A stretch of 64,000 nucleotides of DNA. Origin: Fibrobacter sp. (GTDB lineage: Bacteria; Fibrobacterota; Chitinivibrionia; Chitinivibrionales; Chitinispirillaceae). Location of the stretch: contig JAAYEB010000166.1 of the NCBI GenBank assembly GCA_012728995.1, positions 1-64,000 on the forward strand. Reading direction: 5' to 3'. Both the position numbers and the translations under genes were made by a program. Positions 7,140 through 61,296 of this stretch are shown one piece after another. Each line of letters starts with the position of its first letter. Within the stretch, counting starts at the first letter, position 1. The notes under the pieces were generated by a model. It did not search any database. It saw only the letters and a program-made list of their open reading frames with translations, and was not told where the DNA came from.

Positions 7140-8448
7140 AAAATTAAAGGCCGGATCGGTTGCGGTAAGATCTATCGGATGCAGGACAAACCAGGAAGAG
7201 ATGACTGCATTGAAGTATCAGCTTCAGGATCAGGGTTACAATGTTGTGGAGAACTGTGCTGATGCCGATATTGTGGTTGTCAATACATGTACAGTGACTG
7301 CCTTTACGGAAGTAAAGACAAAAAGGATGATCAAAAAAATCCATCAGCAGGCACCTTTGGCAAAAATTATGGTGACTGGATGTATGGCGCAGAATAAACC
7401 GGATGAATTCAAAACTATTCAGGGAATCAACTGGATTGTTGGAAATACATTCAAAAACAGAATTACATCAATTGTTCAGAATTCTTCAAAAGGTGTTTAC
7501 CATTGTGAATTTGATGAAAACTGGAAAGACTCTCAACCAGAACAGATCCTAATTAAAAAGATTCATCCTGGTGGAAAAACAAGATTTCCTGTAAAAATCC
7601 AGGAGGGTTGCGATTTCGGATGTGCATATTGTATTGTGCCTTCTGTCAGGGGCCCTTCAAGATCTTATCATATGGATCAGATAATCAAAGTCTGTTACAA
7701 TGCTGTTGATGCCGGGTACAAGGAAATCGTTATTACCGGAACCCACATAGGGCAGTTCCGTTACGGACTGGTTAATCTGATAAGAAAAATACTGGAAAAA
7801 AAAGGGGATTTCAGGATCAGGTTAAGTTCACTTGATCCAAGAGATTTAAGCAGTGAATTACTGGAGCTGATAAGTGACAATGAACGTGTCTGCGATCATC
7901 TTCATGTTAGTTTACAAAGTTTAAGCACTCAGGTTCTGAAAAGAATGGAACGTCCTTATGACAGCGTATCAGATCTTGTCGGATTATTAAATGAATTCAG
8001 GGAAAAATGTCCACATGGTGGTTTGGGTGCAGATTTAATTGCAGGTTTTCCGGGTGAAACGGACAAGATGTTTGACACAACGTTAAAAAGAGTTTCAGAC
8101 CTTAATCTATCCTATGCGCATGTTTTCAGGTTTTCTGCGCGTCCTGGTACAAAGGCTTGTAATATGTCTGATCAGATTGATGAAAAAACGAAATCCATGC
8201 GAAGTTCACTGTTGCGTGAAGCTATTGAAAAAAGCAGAGCCTTGTTTATCAGAAACATGAAGAATGTTAAAAAGAGAATAATTGTTGAGTCAGAAAAACC
8301 TTGTCGCGGGTTGACTTCAAATTACATACATGTAGAAATTCCGGATTATGGTAAAGAAAAAAATTCATGGCTTGATGTGAATGTACTTCCTCAAACATGC
8401 GGCCGTTTATTTACAGCCAGGGTAGCAAGTGAGTTTTGTTATGATTAA
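7132..8448 (+). CDS. mtaB: tRNA t6A37 methylthiotransferase (MtaB-like radical SAM protein)
   Basis: The 438-residue protein has the three-part methylthiotransferase architecture. The N-terminal domain carries cluster cysteines C17 (GCRTNQ), C53 (NTCTVT) and C84 (TGCMAQ). The radical SAM core has C160-x3-C164-x2-C167 in EGCDFGCAYCIVP. A C-terminal TRAM-like part follows. The GCRTNQEE start and VPSVRGPSRS segment favour MtaB, which methylthiolates t6A37, over MiaB, which acts on i6A37. The t6A-forming gene tsaD lies 4 kb away. The start overlaps the preceding STAS gene and the end overlaps the next HDOD gene, suggesting a translationally coupled run from mutL onwards. Confidence 0.88.
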   Translation: MSEKLKAGSVAVRSIGCRTNQEEMTALKYQLQDQGYNVVENCADADIVVVNTCTVTAFTEVKTKRMIKKIHQQAPLAKIMVTGCMAQNKPDEFKTIQGINWIVGNTFKNRITSIVQNSSKGVYHCEFDENWKDSQPEQILIKKIHPGGKTRFPVKIQEGCDFGCAYCIVPSVRGPSRSYHMDQIIKVCYNAVDAGYKEIVITGTHIGQFRYGLVNLIRKILEKKGDFRIRLSSLDPRDLSSELLELISDNERVCDHLHVSLQSLSTQVLKRMERPYDSVSDLVGLLNEFREKCPHGGLGADLIAGFPGETDKMFDTTLKRVSDLNLSYAHVFRFSARPGTKACNMSDQIDEKTKSMRSSLLREAIEKSRALFIRNMKNVKKRIIVESEKPCRGLTSNYIHVEIPDYGKEKNSWLDVNVLPQTCGRLFTARVASEFCYD

Positions 8449-9328
8449 AAGTTCCGAATCAGAAGATCTCAGGGGACGTTACCAGCGGGTAATCGAGAAT
8501 ATTGATAATCTGCCTTCTCTTCCTGCAATCGTTACCAAGCTGTTGCAGATCGTAAACTCGGCTGATTCGTCGGCTGATGATGCTGCTGTACTGATTCAGA
8601 AGGATCCGGCATTGACAAGTAAGATGATCCGTCTTGCAAACAGTGCTTTTTACGGAATTCCCAGAAGTATATCTTCTGTTAATAGTGCCGTGGTAATTCT
8701 GGGTTTCAATACTATCAGATCTCTTGTGCTTAGTGCATCTGTCATGAAAATGTTTAGTGGCCCGAAGTATCAGGCTATCAATAAAGAAAGATTCTGGAAA
8801 CATTCTGTAGTATGTGCCATGTGCGCAAGGATAATTGTTCGTTATTTCATGAATATCAGGATGATGGATCCGGAAAGTGCATTTTGTGCAGGAATACTTC
8901 ATGATATAGGTAAACTGATCTTTAATGAGTTTGCTTATGAGGATTATATGGATGCCTGTGAATATGCCAGGAAATATTCTGTACCGCTCATTGAAGCAGA
9001 GAGCAGAATGCTTGGTACCAATCATGCAGAGATAGGAAAAATATTGTCTGATAAATGGGCTTTGCCGCTTGATCTTGAATATTGCCTGGTTTATCATCAT
9101 AATCCGGGTGGTGCAGATAATATTTCAGAGCTGGTTGCTACGGTGCATCTGGCAGATGTCATTGCTCATCAGATTGGAGCAAAACTATGGGATGATGAGT
9201 ATTGTGAAGATGAGTGGGAAAATACAAGGACATTGTTACAAATTACTGATGATGACTTTAAAAAAATAATGAATACAGTTTCCGAAAATCTGGAAAGATC
9301 AGATGAATTCATAAATATTATTACCTGA
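8441..9328 (+). CDS. HDOD-domain signalling protein, first of a tandem pair
   Basis: The product is about 295 residues and is a single HDOD domain. Its helices match the family (LPSLPAIVTKLLQIV, DPALTSKMIRLANSAFYG, SSVNSAVVILGFNTIRSLVLS). It keeps an ILHDIGKL stretch resembling an HD motif and a later H-A-E-I-G. HDOD proteins are regulatory modules tied to signal transduction, motility or cell-cycle control, generally without proven hydrolase activity. GTG at 8429 and ATG at 8441 are both possible starts; both overlap the end of mtaB. No output domain is attached. Confidence 0.85.
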   Translation: MIKSSESEDLRGRYQRVIENIDNLPSLPAIVTKLLQIVNSADSSADDAAVLIQKDPALTSKMIRLANSAFYGIPRSISSVNSAVVILGFNTIRSLVLSASVMKMFSGPKYQAINKERFWKHSVVCAMCARIIVRYFMNIRMMDPESAFCAGILHDIGKLIFNEFAYEDYMDACEYARKYSVPLIEAESRMLGTNHAEIGKILSDKWALPLDLEYCLVYHHNPGGADNISELVATVHLADVIAHQIGAKLWDDEYCEDEWENTRTLLQITDDDFKKIMNTVSENLERSDEFINIIT

Positions 9329-9364
9329 ATTGTCTGATTTGGGGTAATAAACAGCGTTGGAGAA

Positions 9365-10216
9365 GTGGTGGAAAAAAAGGTTTTTGAAAAAGCAGTTAGC
9401 CACTTGCCATCTCTTTCACCGGTAATCCGTCATGTATTATCAGTAATTAGTGATCCTGATTCTTCTTCAACTGACGTTGCCAGGGTATTGAGGCTTGATC
9501 CGGTTATTGCCGGAAAAATCTTAAAGTTGGCAAACTCTGTATATGCCGGCATACCATCAACGGTTTCCTCTTTAAAAAATGCTGTAACTTTCCTGGGGCT
9601 TAAAAGAATCAGTTCTCTTGTTCTCGTTTACGGGTTCAGAATTGATTCAGATTGTTCTGCGATGCCTTTTTCTCTTAAAAGATTTTGGCGTCATTCGGTT
9701 TCTGTTGCATTGGTAGCTGAGTCAATTGCCAGATATTTGAAAAGGTATGGAGTTATTGATACTGATGAAGTCTTTTCTGCAGCCCTTCTTCATGATATTG
9801 GAAAACTGGTTTTAGGGGTAATTTCACCGGAAATGATTTCTTCCAGCCATAACAGGGCATCTAGTGAAACAATTCCTTTTTATCGCGCAGAAGACGAAAA
9901 AATTAACCACATTAATATTGGTGAGAAACTTGCCGAATTTTGGCATCTGCCTGCTGATCTGCAGGCTGCTATTGCAGGACATCACTGGCACATTGTACCG
10001 GATAACTATCTGAAATTACTGTCCATTATTCATATTTCGGATATTATGGTACATATTTTAGGATTCTCTGTTTTTGAGAATGAAATGGTACCTGCGATTG
10101 AGGAGCTTGCATTGCGTGAAATACAACTGCCTATTGAGAGGTTAAGAGTTGTTGTCGATACAGCGTTGGATGATCAGAAAAAAATTGAATCGGTTCTCGA
10201 AATATTTGAGACCTGA
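9365..10216 (+). CDS. HDOD-domain signalling protein, second of the tandem pair
   Basis: The 283-residue HDOD protein is a diverged paralog of its upstream neighbour. It shows the same order: LPSLSPVIRHVLSVI, DPVIAGKILKLANSVYAGIP, AVTFLGLKRISSLVL, ALLHDIGKL and HINIGEKLAEFWHLP. The start is GTG at 9365 or 9368, with GGAGA immediately upstream favouring 9368. It follows the first HDOD gene after 36 bases and ends the co-directional run that began at mutL. Two adjacent HDOD proteins suggest duplication followed by functional division; neither carries a receiver or GGDEF domain. Confidence 0.83.
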   Translation: MVEKKVFEKAVSHLPSLSPVIRHVLSVISDPDSSSTDVARVLRLDPVIAGKILKLANSVYAGIPSTVSSLKNAVTFLGLKRISSLVLVYGFRIDSDCSAMPFSLKRFWRHSVSVALVAESIARYLKRYGVIDTDEVFSAALLHDIGKLVLGVISPEMISSSHNRASSETIPFYRAEDEKINHINIGEKLAEFWHLPADLQAAIAGHHWHIVPDNYLKLLSIIHISDIMVHILGFSVFENEMVPAIEELALREIQLPIERLRVVVDTALDDQKKIESVLEIFET

Positions 10217-13871: not shown

Positions 13872-14774
13872 GTGAACGATTCTGCAAAATATGAAATTCT
13901 GATAGTAGATGACGAAAAGAAGATTTGTGAAATACTTGGAGAACTGTTCAGGTCTGAGGGGTATATTGTCCGATGTGCATATAATGGAAAAGAAGCAATT
14001 GAGAGCATAAAAAAAAACATTCCGGATCTGGTAATATCGGATATTCAGATGCCACTCATGGATGGGTTTCAGTTGTTCAAGATTATAGATACCAGGTATC
14101 CATCAATCAAACATATTTTAATGACCAGTTATGATGTAGACAGATATATCTCTCTTATTCGTCATTACAACATTGGAAATATTCTGGTTAAAGGATCTGA
14201 ATTCAGCATTACAGAAGTGAAATCCTATGTTGAAACCTTACTGACTGGTAATATTTTTGGTTTACAGCGATATTTTTCTGGAGAAAAACTCCATTCTGTT
14301 TCTTTATGCAGTTATGCAAAAGCCAAAGAGGTCAGTTGCCTGATCAGTAAAAAATTTAAAGGTGAAAAAAATATTTATCTTGAAATAGCAATAGATGAAT
14401 TGATATCAAATGCTTTTTTTCATGGGGTTTTACAATTATCAGGATTACCAAGAGAGCTTTGGCCAGAACATGCTGTGATCGAAACTGACAAAGCTATTAA
14501 AGTAACCTGGGCATATGACAGAGAAAAAATTGGAGTATCAATCGAAGATCCACAAGGGAATCTAAAGAAGAATGACGTTCTTAAATGGTTGGACAGATGC
14601 AGGGCAGAAACGGAAGGTGAAGAACATGGGAGAGGATTTCTGCTGGTACGCAAACTGATAGACAGATTAATAATCAATATTGATCCTGGCAAAAAAACAG
14701 AGTGTATCATTATCCAATATTATAAGCACTGTTCTGCTAACCGAAACAAGCCTCTAATGATACATGAGATTTAA
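13872..14774 (+). CDS. Response regulator with RsbW-like ATPase output (receiver-HATPase fusion), copy 1
   Basis: The 300-residue protein starts at GTG 13872. Residues 5-120 are a complete receiver: D13/D14, phosphoacceptor D57 in VISDIQMP, T85 and K107. A linker with NIFGLQRYFS leads to a GHKL ATPase domain with E175-L-I-S-N180 and a late glycine box HGRGFLLVRKL. This is the anti-sigma-factor (RsbW/SpoIIAB) or HATPase_c_2 type rather than a sensor kinase, since no dimerisation/histidine domain is present. Phosphorylation of the receiver would control a partner-switching ATPase that acts on STAS proteins. A paralog with equivalent key residues lies at 60370-61296. It is divergent from the membrane STAS-like gene. 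Confidence 0.85.
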   Translation: MNDSAKYEILIVDDEKKICEILGELFRSEGYIVRCAYNGKEAIESIKKNIPDLVISDIQMPLMDGFQLFKIIDTRYPSIKHILMTSYDVDRYISLIRHYNIGNILVKGSEFSITEVKSYVETLLTGNIFGLQRYFSGEKLHSVSLCSYAKAKEVSCLISKKFKGEKNIYLEIAIDELISNAFFHGVLQLSGLPRELWPEHAVIETDKAIKVTWAYDREKIGVSIEDPQGNLKKNDVLKWLDRCRAETEGEEHGRGFLLVRKLIDRLIINIDPGKKTECIIIQYYKHCSANRNKPLMIHEI

Positions 14775-24563: not shown

Positions 24564-27173
24564 ATGAGAAATCAGGAATTGAAATTCAGTTATGGTATGA
24601 TGTTTCTGGTTTTAATGTTTTGTTTTGCTGCTGCAATATTGGGAGACAGCACAACAGAAGCGTTACTTTTAGCTCATTTTGATACCAGAATTGTTGCATC
24701 CATGTTTTTATTTAATGCAGCTTTTCTGTTTTTAATATCCGGAATGATTATTCCTGTTATAGACAGAATAGATCGTGGTATTTTATTTCAGACAGCTCTT
24801 CTGGTACATGTGTCGATATTAATAGTTATCCGGTTTCTTCTTTATTTAAATCTGGAATTCCTGTATCCGTTTCTTTATTCTTATGCATATATTACAAAGC
24901 TCCTTTTTTTTCTTCTTTTTTGGACTCTTGTAAACGATCTTGTTGATTCCAGAAAAGCTGCAGGTTTATTTCCCCGGCTTGCTGCTGGCGGAACTTTAGG
25001 AGCAATAGGTATATCTTTTTTTATTACGTGGTTCATGAACTTTTTTCAGGTTCAAAATCTCTTTTATATTTGGAGCGCACTTGTTTTCTGTGTTTACCTT
25101 CTTTTTATTCCGGTAAAAAAAAGAAGCTCTGGAATTCATTTTAAAGTCAATCGGGATCGAATTGATCCTCAGGTTAAAAGTATCAATTCATTATTGGATG
25201 GTATTAAACTGCTTAAGATGGAACCAATGTTGGGTCATATGTCGTTTCTGTATGGCCTGATCTTTTTTTTGCTGGTAATACAACAGTTCTATTTTTATTC
25301 TCAGATAAAAACAGCTTTGTCGGAAGCATCACAGGTTGCTTCTTTTCTGGGCTGCTTTAACGGTGTAAGTATGACAGTAACAATCATTTTACAGCTTATG
25401 ATAGCCGGCAAGGTTATCAGCCGTTTAGGTTCGACACGTTCAATGCTTCTGCTTCCTGTTATTCTGGTTTTCAATTACATTGCCATGTTATTGATATCGG
25501 CTGGAATTAGTCCGGGTGCAATTTCTTTATTTGGAGTTACGGTTGTTGGAATGGGTCTTCGTGTTGCATTTTTTGATTCATTTTTTTCGCCAAACTTTCA
25601 GATCTTTTTTTCCAGTTTACCACAGGAATTCAGGGGAAGGGGAAAGTTATGTATCGAGGGGATAATAAAACCGGTTTCGATCATTATTGCTGGTATATGG
25701 ATTATTAGAGTTATGCCTGTTATTACTGATCGGATCAATTTCTACATTCTTGCAGTATTATCCTGTATTGCGATATTTGAATCCTGGCGATTAAGATCAA
25801 AATATACAGAAAGTTTGATAATGTATTTTTCCGGATACGTTGGAAAAAGGAGTAATATTCTTTTTAAGCAATTAAAGGTATCTGGAGAACCTAATTTTTC
25901 AGCAATGGTAAATGAAAAACTGAAAAATGAGGATTTTGTTGTTAAAAAGTTCATAATTGAATTCCTCGCTGATTCTGCAACCGATGAAGCAGTGTCGATT
26001 CTTGATGAGAATCTTGGAAACAGAGACCCGCGGGTGAGAGCGTCAGTTCTTGTTGCACTGGGTAAATTAAAAATTGAAAAATCAAAAAAACATATTATCG
26101 CATGTTTATCAGATCCGGATCAACGGGTCATTGCTAATGCTGTAAGTGCATTGTGTCGGTATAAAGATCCTTCATTGAAGAAATACATTGAACCGTTTAT
26201 GAACAGTCATCATAGAAGAGTTCGTTCTGATGCCATGATAGCACTTTGGCCTTTTTCTGATGCAAAGAAAAAGGAATCTATTTTAAATGAACTTGAACAC
26301 GAATTGTTTGATTCTTCAAGTACACCGGCAAGGATCAGCAGCAATTTATATGTATTGGGAGAAATTGATGGCAGGAGATCATTGAAGATTCTGAATCAGT
26401 ATCATTTATGTAATAAATGTGGCTATGACAATCAGATGGTTTTTGACCAGATGGTAAATGCTCTTTCAAAAAAAAATGATATATCGGCTATGCATACATT
26501 ACTTGAGATTGCAGTGGATTCTGGTAGAAAAAGGCAGATGGTTATTAAAGGCAAAATTGCACACTTTTTTAAAATGAACCCAGAAGTGATTTTAGGTTTT
26601 CTTAATGAAAAATCCTGTCTTAAAAGGAATTTGATTATTCAGGCTGTTTCTGAAATGCCTGAAGATTTAATTAAAAAAATCAGGCCTGAATTAAAGGAGA
26701 TTGCGTCAGAAGAGATGTTTCAGTTGAAAAGGAATATGGATGTATTCAGCAAAGTGTCTGGATATAAAGGTACAGAACTGTTTTGTTATTCATTAATGGA
26801 AGAATACATCGAAACTGAAATAAAAAGTTTACTTTTTATTGCATCTTTAATTGATAAATCAATGAAATTGAAAACTTGTATTTTACAGGTTTTCAACAAG
26901 GATGCTTATGCGCGCGCAAATGCTTTTGAGATGATGAACAATACCGGATTTTTAAAGCTGAATCGATTGATTATAAAAATGATGGAAAAGAAAGAACGAT
27001 TATTATCTATGGTTAATCATTCTGAAATACCTGAGCCAAAATTGTATTCTATTATTAAAAGGTTTATAGATTATGAAAACAGGTGGGTGGCAAAATGTGC
27101 TGATTTTAGTTTGCATAAATTTGCAGAATATGTATCGCAATCAGGCGATTCTGGTTTGTTAAATCTTAATTAA
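24564..27173 (+). CDS. NTT/MFS-like membrane transporter domain fused to HEAT repeats
   Basis: The 869-residue protein has about 11-12 hydrophobic helices in residues 10-410, arranged like the ATP/ADP translocase (Npt/NTT) branch of major facilitator proteins (FWTLVNDLVDSRKAAGLFPRLAAGGTLGAIG). From about 430 on it is soluble and built of helical pairs with HEAT signatures (NLGNRDPRVRASVLVALGKL, LSDPDQRVIANAVSALCRY, HHRRVRSDAMIALWP). The adjacent cyclic-nucleotide-binding gene may supply a regulatory domain for it. Transport substrate is unknown; nucleotide exchange is only one option because free-living bacteria also carry such NTT-HEAT proteins. It heads a six-gene run with gaps of 30-42 bases. 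Confidence 0.8.
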   Translation: MRNQELKFSYGMMFLVLMFCFAAAILGDSTTEALLLAHFDTRIVASMFLFNAAFLFLISGMIIPVIDRIDRGILFQTALLVHVSILIVIRFLLYLNLEFLYPFLYSYAYITKLLFFLLFWTLVNDLVDSRKAAGLFPRLAAGGTLGAIGISFFITWFMNFFQVQNLFYIWSALVFCVYLLFIPVKKRSSGIHFKVNRDRIDPQVKSINSLLDGIKLLKMEPMLGHMSFLYGLIFFLLVIQQFYFYSQIKTALSEASQVASFLGCFNGVSMTVTIILQLMIAGKVISRLGSTRSMLLLPVILVFNYIAMLLISAGISPGAISLFGVTVVGMGLRVAFFDSFFSPNFQIFFSSLPQEFRGRGKLCIEGIIKPVSIIIAGIWIIRVMPVITDRINFYILAVLSCIAIFESWRLRSKYTESLIMYFSGYVGKRSNILFKQLKVSGEPNFSAMVNEKLKNEDFVVKKFIIEFLADSATDEAVSILDENLGNRDPRVRASVLVALGKLKIEKSKKHIIACLSDPDQRVIANAVSALCRYKDPSLKKYIEPFMNSHHRRVRSDAMIALWPFSDAKKKESILNELEHELFDSSSTPARISSNLYVLGEIDGRRSLKILNQYHLCNKCGYDNQMVFDQMVNALSKKNDISAMHTLLEIAVDSGRKRQMVIKGKIAHFFKMNPEVILGFLNEKSCLKRNLIIQAVSEMPEDLIKKIRPELKEIASEEMFQLKRNMDVFSKVSGYKGTELFCYSLMEEYIETEIKSLLFIASLIDKSMKLKTCILQVFNKDAYARANAFEMMNNTGFLKLNRLIIKMMEKKERLLSMVNHSEIPEPKLYSIIKRFIDYENRWVAKCADFSLHKFAEYVSQSGDSGLLNLN

Positions 27174-27210
27174 TGACCACATCACAGAACAACCAGAGGA
27201 AGAGATAAAT

Positions 27211-27702
27211 ATGGATGAAAGATTGTCCTGCAACTTACTCGAAAATGTGTTGATCTTGAAAGAATGCCGGTTATTCTGTAATGTTAATACAAGTGAATTG
27301 CGTGCCGTTTCGCAAATAGCTCAAGAAGTATTTTTCGATAAGGGGCAGTGTATTATAAAAGAAGGCGAGAAAGGTAATTCTCTTTACCTGATAAAATCAG
27401 GGCAGGTACAGATGTTTCAGAAATCAATAAAAACAGGAGAATCGTTAAAAAAGGAAATACTTTATAGTGGGGATTGTTTTGGTGAGATGGCTGTAATAGA
27501 TGAGGAAATCCGGACAAAAACAGCTGTTTCAATGGGGAATTCTATCATGCTCAGAATAAACAGGGATGATTTATATAACACTATTCAGCTATATCCATCT
27601 ATTGGAATAGAACTTTTTTGCAGGATTGTTAAAATGATATATAAAGAAAAACAATATCTCGAAAAGTTAATAGGCGACAGGCAGAATATGGAATCTGTCT
27701 AA
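27211..27702 (+). CDS. Free-standing cyclic-nucleotide-binding (CAP_ED) domain protein
   Basis: The 163-residue protein is essentially one cNMP-binding fold: CRLFCNVNTSELRAVSQIAQE, GQCIIKEGEKGNSLYLIKSGQVQMF and SGDCFGEMAVIDEEIRTKTAVS. The last run is the phosphate-binding cassette; the usual Arg of R-T/S-A is present as R-T-K-T-A, so ligand binding is plausible. There is no DNA-binding helix-turn-helix, unlike CRP/FNR regulators. It lies 37 bases after the transporter-HEAT gene and 30 bases before a lipoprotein gene. It probably regulates the transporter-HEAT protein by direct contact. That is inference. Confidence 0.85.
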   Translation: MDERLSCNLLENVLILKECRLFCNVNTSELRAVSQIAQEVFFDKGQCIIKEGEKGNSLYLIKSGQVQMFQKSIKTGESLKKEILYSGDCFGEMAVIDEEIRTKTAVSMGNSIMLRINRDDLYNTIQLYPSIGIELFCRIVKMIYKEKQYLEKLIGDRQNMESV

Positions 27703-27732
27703 TTTGAGTCTTTCTTGTAAGCAGTAGAATGT

Positions 27733-29166
27733 ATGGCCTTTGCACTTATAATGATTACAGGTTTAATTTTGTTTGCCTGTGCTCCAGTGAACATGGATGT
27801 TTATGTTCATATGATGCACAATCAGGAAATTTATCTGCGTGAAGAAGTCGTACCAGCTTTTGAGGCTGAAAACCGTGTGAAAATAGATGTAAGACATTAT
27901 GAATTAACTGATAGATTACATGAGATACTTGGAGATGACAACGTGAAACCGGCGCTTGTTAAAATTCCATTCGACAAAAGTGCAGCTTTGATGCAGAAAA
28001 ATATTTTGATGCCTCTTGATTCTATTATATCTGAAGAGGATCTTGAAGAATTTAAAAAGGAATACCTTTTGATGTCTTTGGGAGCATTGGACGGAAAACA
28101 GTATCTTGTACCTAGAAAATTCGAAACAAGAATAATGGTTTTTTGTAAAAGTAAGGTATCTGAAGCGGTATTGATTTGGCGTGAATACAGGGATCAGATC
28201 AGTACGGAACTAAAAAAATATAATGGATATGGACTCCCCGACACATATTTGCTTGAAGAGGACCCTGAATCATGGGATTATTATGATATTTTTGTAGTTG
28301 GGTGGATTTGGGCTAACAGAACGTATTATGGTAAAAAAATGGCGAGAATTGCTCACAGAGGCCAAAACTACTCAGGTACATCATTACGGATTATTGATCG
28401 GGTTTTCCAGTTAAATGGAGATATTTCTGAGGTTAATTCGATGAAAGGGGATGGAGTTATTGATGCTTTTTATTGGGAAGCTGTTTATGTTTCAGCTGGT
28501 ATCTTTAATCCGCAAATGTGGGAAAAAAGATGGGCCGGGAATGAAATCTGGCAGGGGTTTGGCAGAGGTGAAGTCTTTCTTTCATTTATGACACAATTGG
28601 ATTGTTTTTTTATTCATGGAACTGGAAAAGATGGTCTGAATGGTTTTCTTGAAAATCCCGATGATATGGGAGTGGCAACTATGCCTGTTGGTTGCTCCAT
28701 GGAATTAAATACAGAAAAAGGTGTTCCCAGACGTATCGGAAAAAAGACCATTTCAACAGGAGGATGGTGGTGGGGAATTCCAAAAAATAGCCCTGCGCCT
28801 GCGGCATCATTTAAATTTTTATCTTACATAACAGGTGTTTCTGCTCTGATTCAGGAGAGTACAAGGTTTGGAATGATTCCGGTAAGAAAAAATGTTCTTG
28901 AAGATATACAAATGTTATTCGGTGGAATGTGGATTTCTGATATCTACAATGTTTCTTTAAAACAGCTAATGCATAATGGGAATGTTACTATTGGTTCAGA
29001 TGCTGCTTTTGAAAAAATTTCTTCATTATATCTGGAGGCCTGGAATGATATTGTTGTAAATCGAAACTGGTCTTCAGATAAAATGATTCCATCAAGGGAG
29101 TATATCAGTAAGTTGTTAGATACTAAATATGGACAGAAAATTACAGAAATGGCATCCGTAAAATAG
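27733..29166 (+). CDS. Extracellular solute-binding lipoprotein (family 1 type) without a permease
   Basis: The 477-residue protein has a signal peptide with lipobox L13-F-A-C16, although its n-region has no basic residues. The fold is that of ABC-type sugar-binding proteins: YLREEVVPAFEAENRVKIDVRHYELTDRLHEIL, KPALVKIPFDKSAALMQKNILMPLD, FLSFMTQLDCF, GWWWGIPKNSPAPAASFKFLSYITG and FGMIPVRKNV. No ABC permease or ATPase is encoded nearby. It sits between a cNMP-domain gene (30 bases) and a TPR gene (36 bases). It may act as a ligand sensor at the membrane rather than in import; that is inference from context. Confidence 0.82.
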   Translation: MAFALIMITGLILFACAPVNMDVYVHMMHNQEIYLREEVVPAFEAENRVKIDVRHYELTDRLHEILGDDNVKPALVKIPFDKSAALMQKNILMPLDSIISEEDLEEFKKEYLLMSLGALDGKQYLVPRKFETRIMVFCKSKVSEAVLIWREYRDQISTELKKYNGYGLPDTYLLEEDPESWDYYDIFVVGWIWANRTYYGKKMARIAHRGQNYSGTSLRIIDRVFQLNGDISEVNSMKGDGVIDAFYWEAVYVSAGIFNPQMWEKRWAGNEIWQGFGRGEVFLSFMTQLDCFFIHGTGKDGLNGFLENPDDMGVATMPVGCSMELNTEKGVPRRIGKKTISTGGWWWGIPKNSPAPAASFKFLSYITGVSALIQESTRFGMIPVRKNVLEDIQMLFGGMWISDIYNVSLKQLMHNGNVTIGSDAAFEKISSLYLEAWNDIVVNRNWSSDKMIPSREYISKLLDTKYGQKITEMASVK

Positions 29167-29202
29167 CTGAAACAAGAATAATTAAAAAGTGAAGCTTGGT
29201 TA

Positions 29203-30681
29203 ATGGAAAAAGACACATATAAAAAGGATGAGCAGGATATAGAGGTATTGCGTGAATTGTATTCTGCAGGTCAGAGGGACAAAGAAACTGTAATGAATCT
29301 TGCTCAGTATTATACCAATCGTGGCTGGTATAATGAAGCTATTGATATTTTAAAAGATGCTATTGCAAACCACTGTGATGATTATATGCTGCTGCTTGAA
29401 TATGGCAATACCTGCTTCAGACGAAAAGATTATAAAACAGCAGTCGAATCGTTCAGAAAAGTAACTGAATTAAAACCTCAAAGTGTAGAGGGATGGAATA
29501 ATCTTGGCATTGGGTTGATACAAATTGGAGATTTTGAGGCTGCCAGGGAGGCTTTCAGTAAAGTTCTTCAGATTGAACCTCAAAATCCCGGTGCATTAAT
29601 GAATGTTGGAAACTGTTTTTACAACAGCAGGGATTATGAAGAAGCACGAAACTTTTTTAAGGAGGTCATCAAGCTTAAACCGGATTTTACTGATGCATGG
29701 TTTAATCTGGGTAATACATTTATTGAATTGGAAGATTATGGTCAGGCCAGAATCTCATTTGAAAAAGCTCTGAACTATGATCCAGATTTTTTTTCAGCAT
29801 TGAAGAATTTAGGCTTTGTATATGATAAAATGGAATTATGTAATGAAGCAGAAAACTGTTATCTGAAAGCGATCGAAAAGTGTAAAGCTGATGCTGCAAT
29901 CCGGGTTAATCTCGGAAACCTTTATCTCAGGCAGAAAAAATTCGATGATGCCAGGAGGTGCTTTTTAAAAGCTGTCAGACTTGCTCCTTACAATACAAGT
30001 GGATGGATGGGGTTGCGTTATCTTGCACTTATAAAAGGAGATTTGAATATGTTCGTAAGGGCTACACTGGCGTCACTTCCAAGGCTTAGTGATGAAATAC
30101 TGGCCCAGAGCATTGAAATCCTTTACGAATTTAATCAGTTGTCAAAAGCCGAAGAGATACTTGCACAGGCCGATCGTCTTGGCAGAACTGCAGATCTGCT
30201 TGATCTTCAAAAATTGCTGATAGCTCAGAAAAAGAGGAGTGATACAGAGGAAACCGCAGATATTTATAAAAGATTGTGTAACGTAACTCAGACCGATACA
30301 ATCAGAAAAGGGTTGGCCCGATATGCACTGGAAAAGGGATTACATGATCAGGTGATCAAATATATTCAGAGTATGGAAAATCCGGACGATGCTGCATACG
30401 GCTTGATTTGGCGTGCATTTCTGGCAAAAAATGAGATATCTAAGGCAAAACAGCAAATACAAAACTATATTAAAGAAAATCCTGAAAGTTATGATTGCTG
30501 GTTTCTTTTGGCAAGAATTGAAGCGTTGAGAGGGCATAGAATTCGCGCTGAAAGATTTCTGGTTCGTGCATTGGAAAATGGATTTACTAATCTGGAGGAA
30601 CTTAATCAATATTCCGATTTAAAGGAAATATTTGATTCTCTTGCTCAATCATCAAAAGACAGGCTTCTTGAATGTCATTAA
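29203..30681 (+). CDS. Tetratricopeptide repeat protein
   Basis: The 492-residue soluble protein has at least seven consecutive TPR units between residues 25 and 290 (WYNEAIDILKDAI, YKTAVESFRKVTELKPQSVEGWNNLG, FEAAREAFSKVLQIEPQNPGALMNVG, YEEARNFFKEVIKLKP). A second, more diverged helical part runs to the C-terminus. No signal peptide or membrane segment is seen, so it is cytoplasmic. TPR arrays scaffold protein complexes; here it may link the lipoprotein/transporter genes upstream with the regulator genes downstream. Confidence 0.9.
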   Translation: MEKDTYKKDEQDIEVLRELYSAGQRDKETVMNLAQYYTNRGWYNEAIDILKDAIANHCDDYMLLLEYGNTCFRRKDYKTAVESFRKVTELKPQSVEGWNNLGIGLIQIGDFEAAREAFSKVLQIEPQNPGALMNVGNCFYNSRDYEEARNFFKEVIKLKPDFTDAWFNLGNTFIELEDYGQARISFEKALNYDPDFFSALKNLGFVYDKMELCNEAENCYLKAIEKCKADAAIRVNLGNLYLRQKKFDDARRCFLKAVRLAPYNTSGWMGLRYLALIKGDLNMFVRATLASLPRLSDEILAQSIEILYEFNQLSKAEEILAQADRLGRTADLLDLQKLLIAQKKRSDTEETADIYKRLCNVTQTDTIRKGLARYALEKGLHDQVIKYIQSMENPDDAAYGLIWRAFLAKNEISKAKQQIQNYIKENPESYDCWFLLARIEALRGHRIRAERFLVRALENGFTNLEELNQYSDLKEIFDSLAQSSKDRLLECH

Positions 30682-30723
30682 AAAAAATTACAGGTTTAAA
30701 GGTAAAAGAAAGGCGGTTATGAA

Positions 30724-31866
30724 ATGAGAAGAGTAGATCGCATTCCTGAGTCAGTTTTCGGAATGGAAAACAGCTCGATTGATTCGAACCGTTTTTACTC
30801 GATTCTTCTTGATGCAAAAGCGGCTGCTGTATCGGAGAATATGTGTGATATTGCAGATAAGCTGCTTTTGAATGAAAAAGAAAATGCAAAAATTGCTTTG
30901 GATCAGCTATGGAATCTGAAAAAAAATCTGACATCAGAGAGCAGCAAAACGCTGGATTTATTAATCAACTATTATCAGGAAAAAATGGACATTCTTCGTA
31001 CCAAAGAGGAACAGATCAAGAAAGTGAGTATGGATTCACGAAATCTCCTCGAGGAAAAACGCAGGCGTGATGAAGAAGTTGCATCAATAAAACAGCAGAT
31101 CCTTGAATGTACAAAAGAACTTGAGATTTTGAATTCGAAACTGCAAACTTTGAGAACAAAGGAACAGGAACTTTTACTTATAGAAAAGCAGCTTAAATGT
31201 GAACTTGATAAAAATGAAAATGAAATTGTAAACGGATTGTATGAGATTATTTTAAGTCAGAAAAATGAATTGGGACAATCGGAATGCGAAATTAATGAAG
31301 AAGCAGCAGCAGATGATGTTAAAAGGGATGATGTTGTCAAAAATGAGTTCGATTCTCCACAGGTTGAGTACAAAGAACCTCAGATTCTGCAGTCAGAAAT
31401 TATCGATAACTTCAACATTACAAAGAAAATAATTGAGCCTCCTGTTTTCCCGAAATCTGTGGTTAAAACAACCAAGGGCAGAATAATTGGTGAATATTAT
31501 TATGATAACAGGGTGTATAAAAATGAACGCCATTATATTTTCAACAGCAGGTTCTTCTGTGAGCATCTCTCAAACAACATCAAACTTCTAAGACAGAGGT
31601 TTAACCAGACTGTATATTCTGAAACCATCCAGATGATACAGGATGCATATAAGCGGGTTTCTGAGAATGTTAAACTGCATTTTGAAATTGCTACAAATGA
31701 AGTTTTGAATGAAAAATCATTAAAGCAGCTATGGATTGATTCTAAAAATAGATCAATAGATGAAATGGAGCGATTTTGCAACCGGTTAAATGCAAAAATC
31801 GGAGTTTTAGGTGTAAATTACAATGCCATGCTGATAGAACAGATGAAACGGTGTACAGAAAACTGA
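30724..31866 (+). CDS. Coiled-coil protein of unknown function
   Basis: The 380-residue protein has no recognised family. Residues about 55-190 form a long charged coiled coil (KEEQIKKVSMDSRNLLEEKRR). An acidic, low-complexity stretch (195-240) follows. A C-terminal globular part (about 250-380) is rich in aromatic and basic residues, with GRIIGEYYYDNRVYKNERHYIF and helices to the end. No signal peptide or membrane helix is seen. It lies 42 bases after the TPR gene and overlaps the start of the membrane AraC-type gene, so it is likely made together with both. Confidence 0.6.
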   Translation: MRRVDRIPESVFGMENSSIDSNRFYSILLDAKAAAVSENMCDIADKLLLNEKENAKIALDQLWNLKKNLTSESSKTLDLLINYYQEKMDILRTKEEQIKKVSMDSRNLLEEKRRRDEEVASIKQQILECTKELEILNSKLQTLRTKEQELLLIEKQLKCELDKNENEIVNGLYEIILSQKNELGQSECEINEEAAADDVKRDDVVKNEFDSPQVEYKEPQILQSEIIDNFNITKKIIEPPVFPKSVVKTTKGRIIGEYYYDNRVYKNERHYIFNSRFFCEHLSNNIKLLRQRFNQTVYSETIQMIQDAYKRVSENVKLHFEIATNEVLNEKSLKQLWIDSKNRSIDEMERFCNRLNAKIGVLGVNYNAMLIEQMKRCTEN

Positions 31867-32606
31867 TTTTCAATATTCTGAAAACGATAATTTTGCTTTT
31901 GTCAGTATCTATTATTCTCTCTGCAGATACTTTGCCGACAAATGACAGTGTTTCCAGGTCGGAAAGTATTGATTTTGCAGATAATTCGAAAGAAACGGAT
32001 ATCCCGAAAAGTTCGGAAGCAGATGAGTCCGATCTGAACAAAAAAAGAAATCCAGCATTTATAAAGCAATACTTCCAGAAATTTTTACATAATTCTGTTG
32101 AAAATCTAAAAGGTTTTACTGAAAAAATCAAAACACTGCGTCACTATGGTGTAAAATTAATTGTTTTGCTTGTTTCTGTGACTGTAATAATTGCAACATT
32201 GGTTTTTTATATGCAGAAACAGGATCGGGTCCGTTTTTTGACAACCACTCGCTTATCAGTTATGGATAAAGAGGTACAGAGGGCTTGCAGACTGATTGAA
32301 CGTAAGTTTACAGACCGTAGCCTGACTCCTGAAGTGGTGTGTGGTGAACTGGTTACAGGAGAAGCTTTTTTGCAGGCACTTTTTAAAAAAGAACTGGGAA
32401 TGAGTATAGAGGATTTCACAAATCAGGTCAGGATAAACAGAGCCAGAATTATATTAAACAGGAATCGGGAGGCAGATACTGATGAGCTGGTTTACGAAAC
32501 CGGTTTTAAGGATACAGAAGAATTTTTGAATGCTTTCAACAAAATAACAGGAGTCAGTTTCGAGTCGTTCAGAAATAGTATCAGAATGGAAACTGAAGTT
32601 ATCTGA
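31851..32606 (+). CDS. Membrane-anchored AraC-type DNA-binding protein
   Basis: The chosen start is GTG at 31851, inside the end of the upstream gene; it opens directly onto a hydrophobic segment (IFNILKTIILLLSVSIILSA). The product is about 251 residues. A 70-residue polar linker and a second membrane helix (LIVLLVSVTVIIATLVFYM) follow, then about 125 cytoplasmic residues. The last 100 match the double helix-turn-helix of AraC/XylS proteins (ACRLIERKFTDRSLTPEVVCGEL, FKKELGMSIEDFTNQVRINRARIIL, YETGFKDTEEFLNAFNKITGVSFESFR). It would place a transcription factor at the membrane, last in a run with a solute-binding lipoprotein. Exact start is uncertain. Confidence 0.7.
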   Translation: MYRKLIFNILKTIILLLSVSIILSADTLPTNDSVSRSESIDFADNSKETDIPKSSEADESDLNKKRNPAFIKQYFQKFLHNSVENLKGFTEKIKTLRHYGVKLIVLLVSVTVIIATLVFYMQKQDRVRFLTTTRLSVMDKEVQRACRLIERKFTDRSLTPEVVCGELVTGEAFLQALFKKELGMSIEDFTNQVRINRARIILNRNREADTDELVYETGFKDTEEFLNAFNKITGVSFESFRNSIRMETEVI

Positions 32607-32911
32607 TCTTTAAAATTTTTTTATGATTTTCTTTCTTTTTGCTACAGTAGATGCTTACACAAGAAATGATTGGAAAAAAATTGAAGTATCAGATACTCTG
32701 AATATGGTTTTTTAGGGGCAGATTGGTAAAAGGCTACACAAATTTTATTGTATACTGAAAGACTTTCATTCACTTGCAAAAAAAATAAATCAGATCAAAC
32801 CGGGAGCATGAATCGGATCTATTGATTTAGTTTGCTTAAACGGTTGCTAAAAATCTATTTTATCGCTTCTGAACAATATTTTATTATTAATATTTTGTAC
32901 AGGCTTATTTT
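32607..32911. other. Intergenic region upstream of tRNA-Pro
   Basis: No gene or clear terminator is seen in this AT-rich stretch. Possible promoter-like sequences are present but no hexamer pair has good spacing. Confidence 0.4.
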
Positions 32912-32985
32912 CGGAGTGTAGCGCAGTCTGGTAGCGCACTTGGTTCGGGACTAAGTGGTCGGAGGTTCAAATCCTCTCACTCCGA
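32912..32985 (+). tRNA. tRNA-Pro (anticodon CGG)
   Basis: Acceptor arms CGGAGTG (32912-32918) and CACTCCG (32978-32984) pair, with discriminator A. The anticodon stem CTTGG/CTAAG encloses TTCGGGA, giving anticodon CGG. The T arm GGAGG-TTCAAAT-CCTCT follows. CCA is not encoded. Confidence 0.95.
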
Positions 32986-32995
32986 TTTAAAATTT

Positions 32996-33040
32996 AAAAG
33001 GCTTTAAGTCATTTAAAAAAACTGATTTAAAGCCTTTTTT
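32996..33040 (+). terminator. Intrinsic terminator of tRNA-Pro
   Basis: AAAAGGCTTTAA (32996-33007) pairs with TTTAAAGCCTTTT (33026-33038), and the right arm continues into a T-run. It begins 11 bases after the tRNA. Confidence 0.85.
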
Positions 33041-33163
33041 GTTAAGCTTACTGTAATGAGAACAAGAATACAACAGTAAAGTACAAGCTGTAGGATTTGG
33101 TGTCTCTTTAGGGTGTGATTATGTTGATCGACTTCCTGGTAAAGAAGAGGTGGGGTAAACTAC

Positions 33164-33958
33164 ATGTGTAACAAGCATTTATTAAATTCAGAATCTCAAA
33201 ATCCTCTTTTTTTGGCAGAAATGAGTTACAGACAGATAGAGGAACATTTAAAACGCATTCCCTGTCTGGTTGTACCGCTTGGTGGTTTGGAAACTTACGG
33301 GAAAAGTGGAATGCTTGGATCTGCCGGAATTTGTAGTTCCTTCATCTGCCGGGAATTGTCTTCAAGGTTGAATGTAATATGTGCACCGGATATTTATTAC
33401 AGTTGTACCGGAGCATTCAAAGCTTTTCCTGGTTGTGCATCTATTCACCACAGCACTTTTATCAATTTTTTGATGAGTATATGCCATGGTTGGTTGTTCC
33501 AGGGGTTTAAAAGAATACTGTTTATAAATTCGATTCCTGAAAATAATAAACATATTGATATTGTTGCACAAAAAATTAATCGATTGAAAAAAGAAGATTA
33601 TATAGGCTATTTTGACTGGCAGAATAATAAGAGTATTGGGTCGTTTATTTCAAAACATATTTCATCAAATGAGCTTGGGCGATCACAGAAGTCAATACTT
33701 TCTATGGCTGCGTTTCTTAAGCCAAAACTTTTTTCGGAATTTAATGACAATGAATCATACAGATTACCGGATCGGGGAGTTTACAAAAGATGGGAAAAGA
33801 GGGGAAGGGATCCTGTAAAATTCAGGAAACTGTTTCCGTCAGGAGGTACTTCAGAAGATCCATTGGGGTATGATTCTTCTTTTGGAGAGGAACTGTTTGG
33901 ATATATATTAGAAATTCTGGAACAGGAGTACTCATCATTTTTAAAGATTAATCCTTAA
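33164..33958 (+). CDS. Creatininase-family protein with degenerate metal site
   Basis: The 264-residue protein has the creatininase/creatinine amidohydrolase order: FLAEMSYRQIEEHLKRIPCLVVPLGGLE, ICAPDIYYSCTGAFKAFPG, IHHSTFINFLMSICHGWLFQGFKRILFIN. Key positions are changed. The usual E-x-H-G near residue 45 is E-T-Y-G, the following L-G-T-D is L-G-S-A, and the N-G-H-G-G-N loop reads N-S-I-P-E-N-N. Two or more metal ligands are therefore missing and amidohydrolase activity is unlikely. It is directly followed (1 base) by two M16 peptidase genes, with which it is probably co-transcribed. Confidence 0.72.
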   Translation: MCNKHLLNSESQNPLFLAEMSYRQIEEHLKRIPCLVVPLGGLETYGKSGMLGSAGICSSFICRELSSRLNVICAPDIYYSCTGAFKAFPGCASIHHSTFINFLMSICHGWLFQGFKRILFINSIPENNKHIDIVAQKINRLKKEDYIGYFDWQNNKSIGSFISKHISSNELGRSQKSILSMAAFLKPKLFSEFNDNESYRLPDRGVYKRWEKRGRDPVKFRKLFPSGGTSEDPLGYDSSFGEELFGYILEILEQEYSSFLKINP

Positions 33959-60369: not shown

Positions 60370-61296
60370 ATGGATAATTCTGAAAGATCAATTCTTGTTA
60401 TTGATGATGAAAATGGTATCAGGGAAATGATCTGTGATTATTTGAGTGAAATTGAGGGATACAGTGTTTACAGTGCTTCTAATGGAGCTGATGGACTTGA
60501 CATACTGAAAAATAAAAAAATTGATCTGGTACTTTCTGATATCAACATGCCGGGGATGAAGGGGTTTGATCTTTTTAGAGAAATCAAAGAATTATATCCG
60601 TTGGTAAAAAGGGTATTAATAACAGCTTATAATGTCGAAGAATACCTGGATCTGGCGCTTTCGCATGGTATAGGAAATATTTTTGTAAAAACGAGCCCGT
60701 TTAATTTTTCTGAATTGTCCATAACACTTAAAAAACTCCTTGAAGAAAATATTTTTGGTCTTAATCACTATTTTTCCGACAATGCAGAGTGTATGTGTTT
60801 CAAAATAAGGAGATCAAAAAAATTAGAAAAGGATGTCTGCAGAATAACTTCATTTATTGGAAGTAGAGCCCAGATAAATAAGCTTGAACTGGTACTTGTG
60901 GAATTGCTTACCAATGCAATATTTTACGGTATCTGCAATGAACAATCGGCTCATAAAGAATACTGGGAGCATAATTTTGTTCTTCCGGAAGATAAAGCGA
61001 TAACAGTCGTAGCAGCCAAAGACGACAAAAAATATGGCATATCAATAACTGATACTGGTGGCAGGTTGAAAAAAAATGATGTTCTTTATTGGTTGAACAG
61101 GCAGATTGCCACAGATCAGAATGGGTTACCTTTGGGATTATATGATTCACATGGCAGAGGTTTTTTTATTGCACGAAAATACATAGACAGACTTATTATT
61201 AATATAAATCAATCTTGTAAAACAGAAATAGTCATGATCAATTATTACTCCGATACATATAAAGGTTTTAAACCTCTCTACATAAATGAGCTATGA
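60370..61296 (+). CDS. Response regulator with RsbW-like ATPase output (receiver-HATPase fusion), copy 2
   Basis: The 308-residue protein is a paralog of the 13872-14774 product. The receiver has phosphoacceptor D57 (VLSDINMP), T85 and K107 at identical numbers. The linker NIFGLNHYFS matches NIFGLQRYFS. The ATPase domain has E178-L-L-T-N182 and SHGRGFFIARKYIDRLI. Both paralogs end with K-P-L-x-I-x-E-(I/L). Its own substrate is probably a STAS protein; the one at 57595-57924 is closest. Its stop overlaps the start of the RluA-type synthase gene by 4 bases. Confidence 0.85.
   Translation: MDNSERSILVIDDENGIREMICDYLSEIEGYSVYSASNGADGLDILKNKKIDLVLSDINMPGMKGFDLFREIKELYPLVKRVLITAYNVEEYLDLALSHGIGNIFVKTSPFNFSELSITLKKLLEENIFGLNHYFSDNAECMCFKIRRSKKLEKDVCRITSFIGSRAQINKLELVLVELLTNAIFYGICNEQSAHKEYWEHNFVLPEDKAITVVAAKDDKKYGISITDTGGRLKKNDVLYWLNRQIATDQNGLPLGLYDSHGRGFFIARKYIDRLIININQSCKTEIVMINYYSDTYKGFKPLYINEL

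Follow-up and report, generated by a model that had tools for sequence, protein, structure and literature searches.

A conserved six-gene run of Chitinivibrionia pairs a split NTT-HEAT-cNBD protein with a solute-binding lipoprotein and a possible membrane-docked scaffold

Membrane proteins of the NTT-HEAT type, with a cyclic-nucleotide-binding domain (cNBD) either fused to them or encoded by a neighbouring gene, have been described in free-living bacteria, and control of transport by cAMP has been proposed for them (Major, Embley and Williams 2017, PMC5381601). In the plastid ATP/ADP translocase AtNTT1 adenylate transport requires the four charged residues K155, E245, E385, and K527. Mutants of K155 lose ADP binding, and the E245K mutation nearly abolishes exchange (PMC4256464; PMC3306366).

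The locus described here resembles the free-living bacterial proteins in that a gene for an NTT-HEAT protein (g1) precedes an unfused gene for a cNBD (g2) and in that a paralogue is a three-domain fusion. It differs in its partners, a solute-binding protein (SBP), a TPR protein, a coiled-coil protein, and a protein with an AraC-type domain, none of which appears in the part of PMC5381601 drawn on, and in the adenylate-exchange residues, which are mostly absent from g1. An earlier note on this DNA knew of no described system with such genes. The g1-g2 pairing is already known; in a limited literature search neither the conserved six-gene set nor its connection to an SBP was found, and nor were the families of g5 and g6.

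The window, i.e. the whole stretch of 64,000 nucleotides that was analysed, corresponds to contig C94 in a draft genome (G000) that totals 4.97 Mb. Six open reading frames, all on the + strand, span positions 24564-32606 and have the following features:

24564..27173, + strand: g1, NTT-fold membrane protein with C-terminal HEAT solenoid, 869 aa
g1 residues 1 to about 422, + strand: NTT-fold membrane half (profile and AlphaFold model)
25668..25670, + strand: K369 of g1, equivalent to AtNTT1 K527 (profile alignment)
g1 residues about 445-859, + strand: HEAT solenoid (Pfam HEAT_2)
27211..27702, + strand: g2, lone cyclic-nucleotide-binding domain, 163 aa (Pfam cNMP_binding)
27478..27525, + strand: phosphate-binding cassette of g2, FGEMAVIDEEIRTKTA, in which Gly-Glu and Arg are conserved (alignment)
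27733..29166, + strand: g3, SBP_bac_8-type solute-binding lipoprotein, 477 aa (lipobox Cys16 at 27778-27780)
29203..30681, + strand: g4, cytoplasmic TPR protein, 492 aa (Pfam TPR)
30724..31866, + strand: g5, coiled-coil protein without a family, 380 aa
30943-31272, + strand: long coiled-coil helix of g5, residues 74-183 (predicted model)
31453-31860, + strand: conserved C-terminal domain of g5, residues 244-379 (predicted model)
31851..32606, + strand: g6, membrane protein with AraC-type (HTH_18) domain, GTG start at 31851; first hydrophobic (signal) segment 5-23, periplasmic stretch, membrane helix 103-121, cytoplasmic HTH_18
32355..32384, + strand: first recognition helix of g6, TGEAFLQALF, residues 169-178 (23 orthologues)

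The first five genes are separated by 37, 30, 36, and 42 bases, and g5 and g6 overlap, so that the arrangement read in the earlier note, six co-directional genes with gaps of 30-42 bases and one overlap, is indeed present. The overlap amounts to 16 bases with the GTG start of g6 and to 91 bases with the first TTG (31776). We preferred the GTG because it gives MYRKL..., matching the starts of the orthologues (MxRKL...); a start at the TTG appears unlikely. Overlaps of 16-19 bases between g5 and g6 are found again in many genomes. Scans for promoters and terminators gave counts at chance level only.

Neighbourhoods of homologues were gathered from 81 to 168 Fibrobacterota genomes and annotated with custom profiles. 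The whole order g1-g2-g3-g4-g5-g6 lies on a single contig in six genomes from four families of Chitinivibrionia (G000, G002 in f1; G027, G032 in f5; G025 in f3; G028 in f6), and judged by these contigs its recurrence far exceeds chance. As the order is shared at a protein identity of only about 33-60%, the run is, on comparative grounds, a real and vertically kept operon. In G033 the genes g1-g4 follow each other up to the contig end. Four further genomes (G001, G011, G017, and G024) have g2-g3-g4-g5 together and g1 elsewhere, which places the break between g1 and g2; in the first three of them the split-off g1 adjoins argA, a gene that is divergent and upstream of the run in many genomes. A contig scan with g5 as query gave matches only in Fibrobacterota. 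The earlier note had looked to a conserved order in relatives as one check of its proposal and had held that scattered homologues would speak against it. The order was found as described, and scatter is confined to g1, split off in one genus and in G024, and to the absence of g1-g3 from several genera. A mirror-tree correlation was also considered as evidence for interaction and dropped: the unrelated neighbour argA correlates equally well, and therefore the rate correlations show vertical inheritance only.

Pfam matches above the cut-offs were obtained for HEAT_2, cNMP_binding, SBP_bac_8, TPR, and HTH_18. Thus, of the families named in the earlier note, HEAT, CAP_ED, SBP_bac, TPR, and AraC HTH were recovered by Pfam, and NTT/MFS was not, since a single-sequence search with g1 gave no match to it. 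The NTT assignment was nevertheless borne out by other means. A profile of the membrane half of g1 matches the solved NTTs CpNTT1/AtNTT1 (E 3e-7), and the AlphaFold model of g1, which has moderate confidence in the membrane half, has AtNTT1 as its top PDB match (E 2.4e-6, TM 0.68 by target). By profile and model, the membrane half of g1 has the 12-helix NTT fold.

g1 is thus like the plastid and Chlamydia ATP/ADP translocases AtNTT1 and CpNTT1 in the fold of its membrane half and unlike them in its charged residues. At the sites equivalent to K155, E245, and E385 it carries T, K, and Q, and only K527 is kept; operon-type g1 proteins in general have T/A, K/N/R, and Q at these three sites and K at the fourth. 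The sites of E245, E385, and K527 were positioned by profile alignment and that of K155 by visual comparison of the N-terminal motif. A role of g1 as ATP/ADP exchanger was considered and rejected on account of the residue loss at three of the four essential sites; to judge from these positions g1 is probably not a nucleotide exchanger.

The g2 cassette has the Gly-Glu...Arg arrangement of a cNBD, and its phosphate-binding Arg is kept in 24/24 sequences. One class III cyclase is encoded in the genome. The genome also contains a paralogous locus (L092) in which g1-type and g2-type sequences are fused. Measured against this fusion, g1 and g2 represent the known NTT-HEAT-cNBD protein split into two chains, g2 being its detached C-terminal domain. 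The cNMP-binding partner for g1 envisaged in the earlier note is supported by the fusion and the invariant Arg, and g2 can be regarded as a candidate cAMP- or cGMP-binding partner.

The lipobox Cys16 of g3 is nearly invariant among orthologues. A single-sequence phmmer search with g3 against PDB gave no match, and a g3 profile retrieved distant SBPs only; the ligand is probably a sugar or another organic solute. With its SBP_bac_8 lipoprotein and a paralogous SBP in the locus mentioned above, the run recalls carbohydrate ABC importers (SBP + MalFGK), but differs from them in that no permease or ATPase gene lies within 24564-32606. g3 is thus the lone solute-binding lipoprotein of ligand-binding type noticed before. 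Further lone SBPs of the g3 family, without permeases and in varied neighbourhoods, were seen at L192, L193, L194, L195, L196, and L197, and in G032 (L131, 6267-9874) a lone SBP with 43% identity to g3 lies two genes from a HAMP/MCP signalling protein.

The paralogous locus, locus II (G000:C396, L092, 5132-12783), encodes a 1064-aa NTT-HEAT-cNBD fusion and an SBP with 37% identity to g3, together with a MalK-type ATPase and a pair of BPD_transp_1 permeases. Next to locus II, relatives carry TonB/ExbB/ExbD-type genes and a gene for an outer-membrane-like protein.

g4 is a TPR protein by Pfam, with neither a signal peptide nor a membrane helix predicted, and g5 has the coiled coil expected of it. 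g5 matched no Pfam family. Its model combines the long helix with a compact C-terminal domain predicted at high local confidence, and a fold search with the model gave no PDB match at E<=0.001. With 44-67% identity to orthologues, g5 ranks among the better-conserved proteins encoded in the run. Next to a g5 homologue, families f10 and f9 (L156, 271-4245; L157, 6773-10539) have genes that by reading are apparent DNA topoisomerase VI subunits B and A. In G031 (L121, 9087-13907) g5-g6 are followed by ExbB/ExbD-like genes, a gene type that adjoins locus II elsewhere.

The HTH_18 match of g6 (2e-12; 47.7 bits, cut-off 33.6) is significant, and the domain is closest to solved domains of the AraC/YesN type. 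Over 23 orthologues the first recognition helix follows the pattern T-G-x-A-[FY]-L-[E]-A-L-F, in which Thr, Gly, Ala172, Ala176, and Leu177 are invariant or nearly so. At the positions that we take to be equivalent to the DNA-reading residues W42, R46, and Q45 of MarA, g6 has Ala in 23/23 and in 21/23 sequences and mostly an acidic residue, respectively. The mean net charge of the domain is -1.5, compared with +3.6 in 13 AraC-type domains of other proteins, taken from these genomes and from PDB, over stretches of somewhat unequal length. The membrane-proximal motif RFLTTTRLS-[IV]-[ML]-D-K is conserved as well, and one Cys and one Glu are invariant. This pattern fits a protein contact better than DNA reading. 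g6 has probably lost the ability to read DNA and its role as a transcription factor appears doubtful, although the loss of the usual reading residues may still be compatible with unusual DNA contacts. The periplasmic stretch is of low complexity and variable in length and composition; by its make-up it is not a sensor domain.

One-component and hybrid membrane regulators with an AraC-type HTH share with g6 the domain on the cytoplasmic face, but g6 has no sensor domain and has lost the DNA-reading residues. RodZ crosses the membrane once and has a cytoplasmic HTH that is not used for DNA reading. By analogy g6, likewise single-pass with a cytoplasmic HTH, could dock to a cytoplasmic filament or scaffold; its HTH is of the AraC type and the domain order is opposite, and no homology is claimed.

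Many relatives have a periplasmic transglutaminase-like gene X after g6, followed in several by a creatininase gene and two M16 peptidase genes. Gene X, intact or decayed, was not found after g6 here (window 32606-33164) and is missing from the genome; Rfam found only a tRNA-Pro after g6. This tRNA-Pro(cgg) lies at 32911-32986, between g6 and the creatininase gene. Elsewhere in the window two paralogous response-regulator proteins whose C-terminal half is ATPase-like (13872-14774 and 60370-61296) and a tandem pair of HDOD-like genes (8429-10216) were recognized by reading.

Among relatives from family to order level the gene content is nested: g1 and g2 are found only where g3 is present, g3 only where g4 is, and g4 only where g5 is. 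Some cells of the underlying gene-content table are contig breaks, and there are exceptions. Genomes of family f7 have g1-g2 without an adjoining g3, and G041 (L105), from a further family (f9), has g1-g2-g3 beside priA, without permeases and without g4-g6. Where the contigs are adequate, g1 and g2 are retained or lost jointly. The genes g4-g5-g6 occur without g1-g3 in genus g10 and in G007, only g5-g6 are left in G031, and only g6 in G003. g4 and g5 are adjacent in 30 loci and their pair also occurs in family f11; in f8, a large family that is probably Fibrobacteraceae, no g5 was found at the thresholds used. By this distribution g4-g5 is the oldest core of the run, and the run as a whole is layered or modular, the triad g1-g2-g3 recurring elsewhere and g4-g5(-g6) persisting without it. 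Since g4-g5(-g6) is retained where g1-g3 are missing, the scaffold part appears independent of the ligand- and cNMP-related part.

We tentatively favour, at somewhat less than even chances, the explanation that the run consists of two linked layers, a cNMP-linked, SBP-associated unit g1-g3 on an older membrane-docked scaffold g4-g6 to which it was added. The lipoprotein g3 would capture a ligand in the periplasm and hand it to g1, a non-exchanger NTT-fold membrane protein that would act as receptor or transporter. The cytoplasmic HEAT arm of g1, together with the separate subunit g2, would tune g1 to the cyclic-nucleotide level. g4 and g5 would dock to the membrane via g6, whose AraC-type domain would have turned from a DNA reader into a protein-docking module; the products would be in physical contact and the two layers coupled. 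Two observations run counter to parts of it. The g1-type/SBP pair of locus II comes with a complete ABC importer, so that g1 may be accessory rather than the path taken by the ligand, and the f7 genomes keep g1-g2 without g3 adjoining. The stronger version, in which g1-g2-g3 represent a new SBP-dependent class where the SBP feeds an MFS/NTT-fold transporter or transceptor via the HEAT/cNBD arm, tethered to the scaffold by an HTH-docking membrane protein, is improbable at present.

The earlier note had proposed a relay instead, in which g3 and g1-g2 sense ligand and cNMP and signal through g4 and g5 to g6 as a membrane-bound AraC-type transcription factor. The significant HTH_18 domain, related to AraC and YesN and on the cytoplasmic side of the membrane helix, would suit such a relay, as would the conserved gene order. 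Its proposed end point, however, has invariant Ala or acidic residues at the reading-helix sites, a well-conserved but non-basic domain surface, and a variable periplasmic part, and its scaffold survives in genomes without the proposed sensors. We consider the relay quite unlikely. A different objection to the two-layer explanation is that g3 could simply serve the MalFGK-type importer of locus II and widen its ligand range. g3 is paralogous to the locus II SBP, whose neighbours include an ATPase and two permeases, and it belongs to a group of operon SBPs (type I, SBP-I) that, where it evolves slowly, is nearly always accompanied by the locus II permease in the genome. This permease is missing at a threshold of E 1e-30 from G005, G008, G014, G024, and G033, G014 having a distant match of 31% only. 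In G005, G008, and G014 (97-98% complete) SBP-I is long-branched in the tree, which is in line with such a role; yet these three genomes and G024 (90% complete) do possess SBP-I, which means that g3 can be retained without that importer. SBP-I adjoins g4 in G005 (at a contig break, argA-linked), G008, and G014. No permease adjoins the f9 triad, nor are permeases found beside several further lone SBPs of the family, and SBPs of the operon and of the permease loci (type II) form separate groups in the tree. Service to locus II therefore seems a rather unlikely role.

It could finally be that transporter-like g1-g3 and housekeeping coiled-coil/TPR genes g4-g6 are unrelated cassettes on a shared transcript. 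The isolated occurrence of g1-g2-g3 in G041, of g1-g2 in f7, and of g4-g5-g6 in genus g10 and G007 agrees with this, and the nested loss is consistent with an added-on upstream unit. On the other hand, an order kept in four families at low identity, with tight gaps and overlaps, points to more than a short-lived neighbourhood, and SBP-I is next to g4 wherever it and its linkage were visible. On balance we hold two unrelated cassettes to be a rather unlikely explanation.

NTT-HEAT-cNBD proteins are widespread, occurring in cyanobacteria, chlamydiae, and oomycetes, and are without known function. With g5 the run contains a conserved protein family lacking any annotation. The g6 family, if our reading is true, would exemplify an AraC-type domain retained for a purpose other than DNA reading. 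The steady association with an SBP, with or without ABC permeases, together with the loss of the exchange residues, suggests that at least this branch of the NTT-HEAT-cNBD proteins may act on an SBP-delivered ligand and not on nucleotides.
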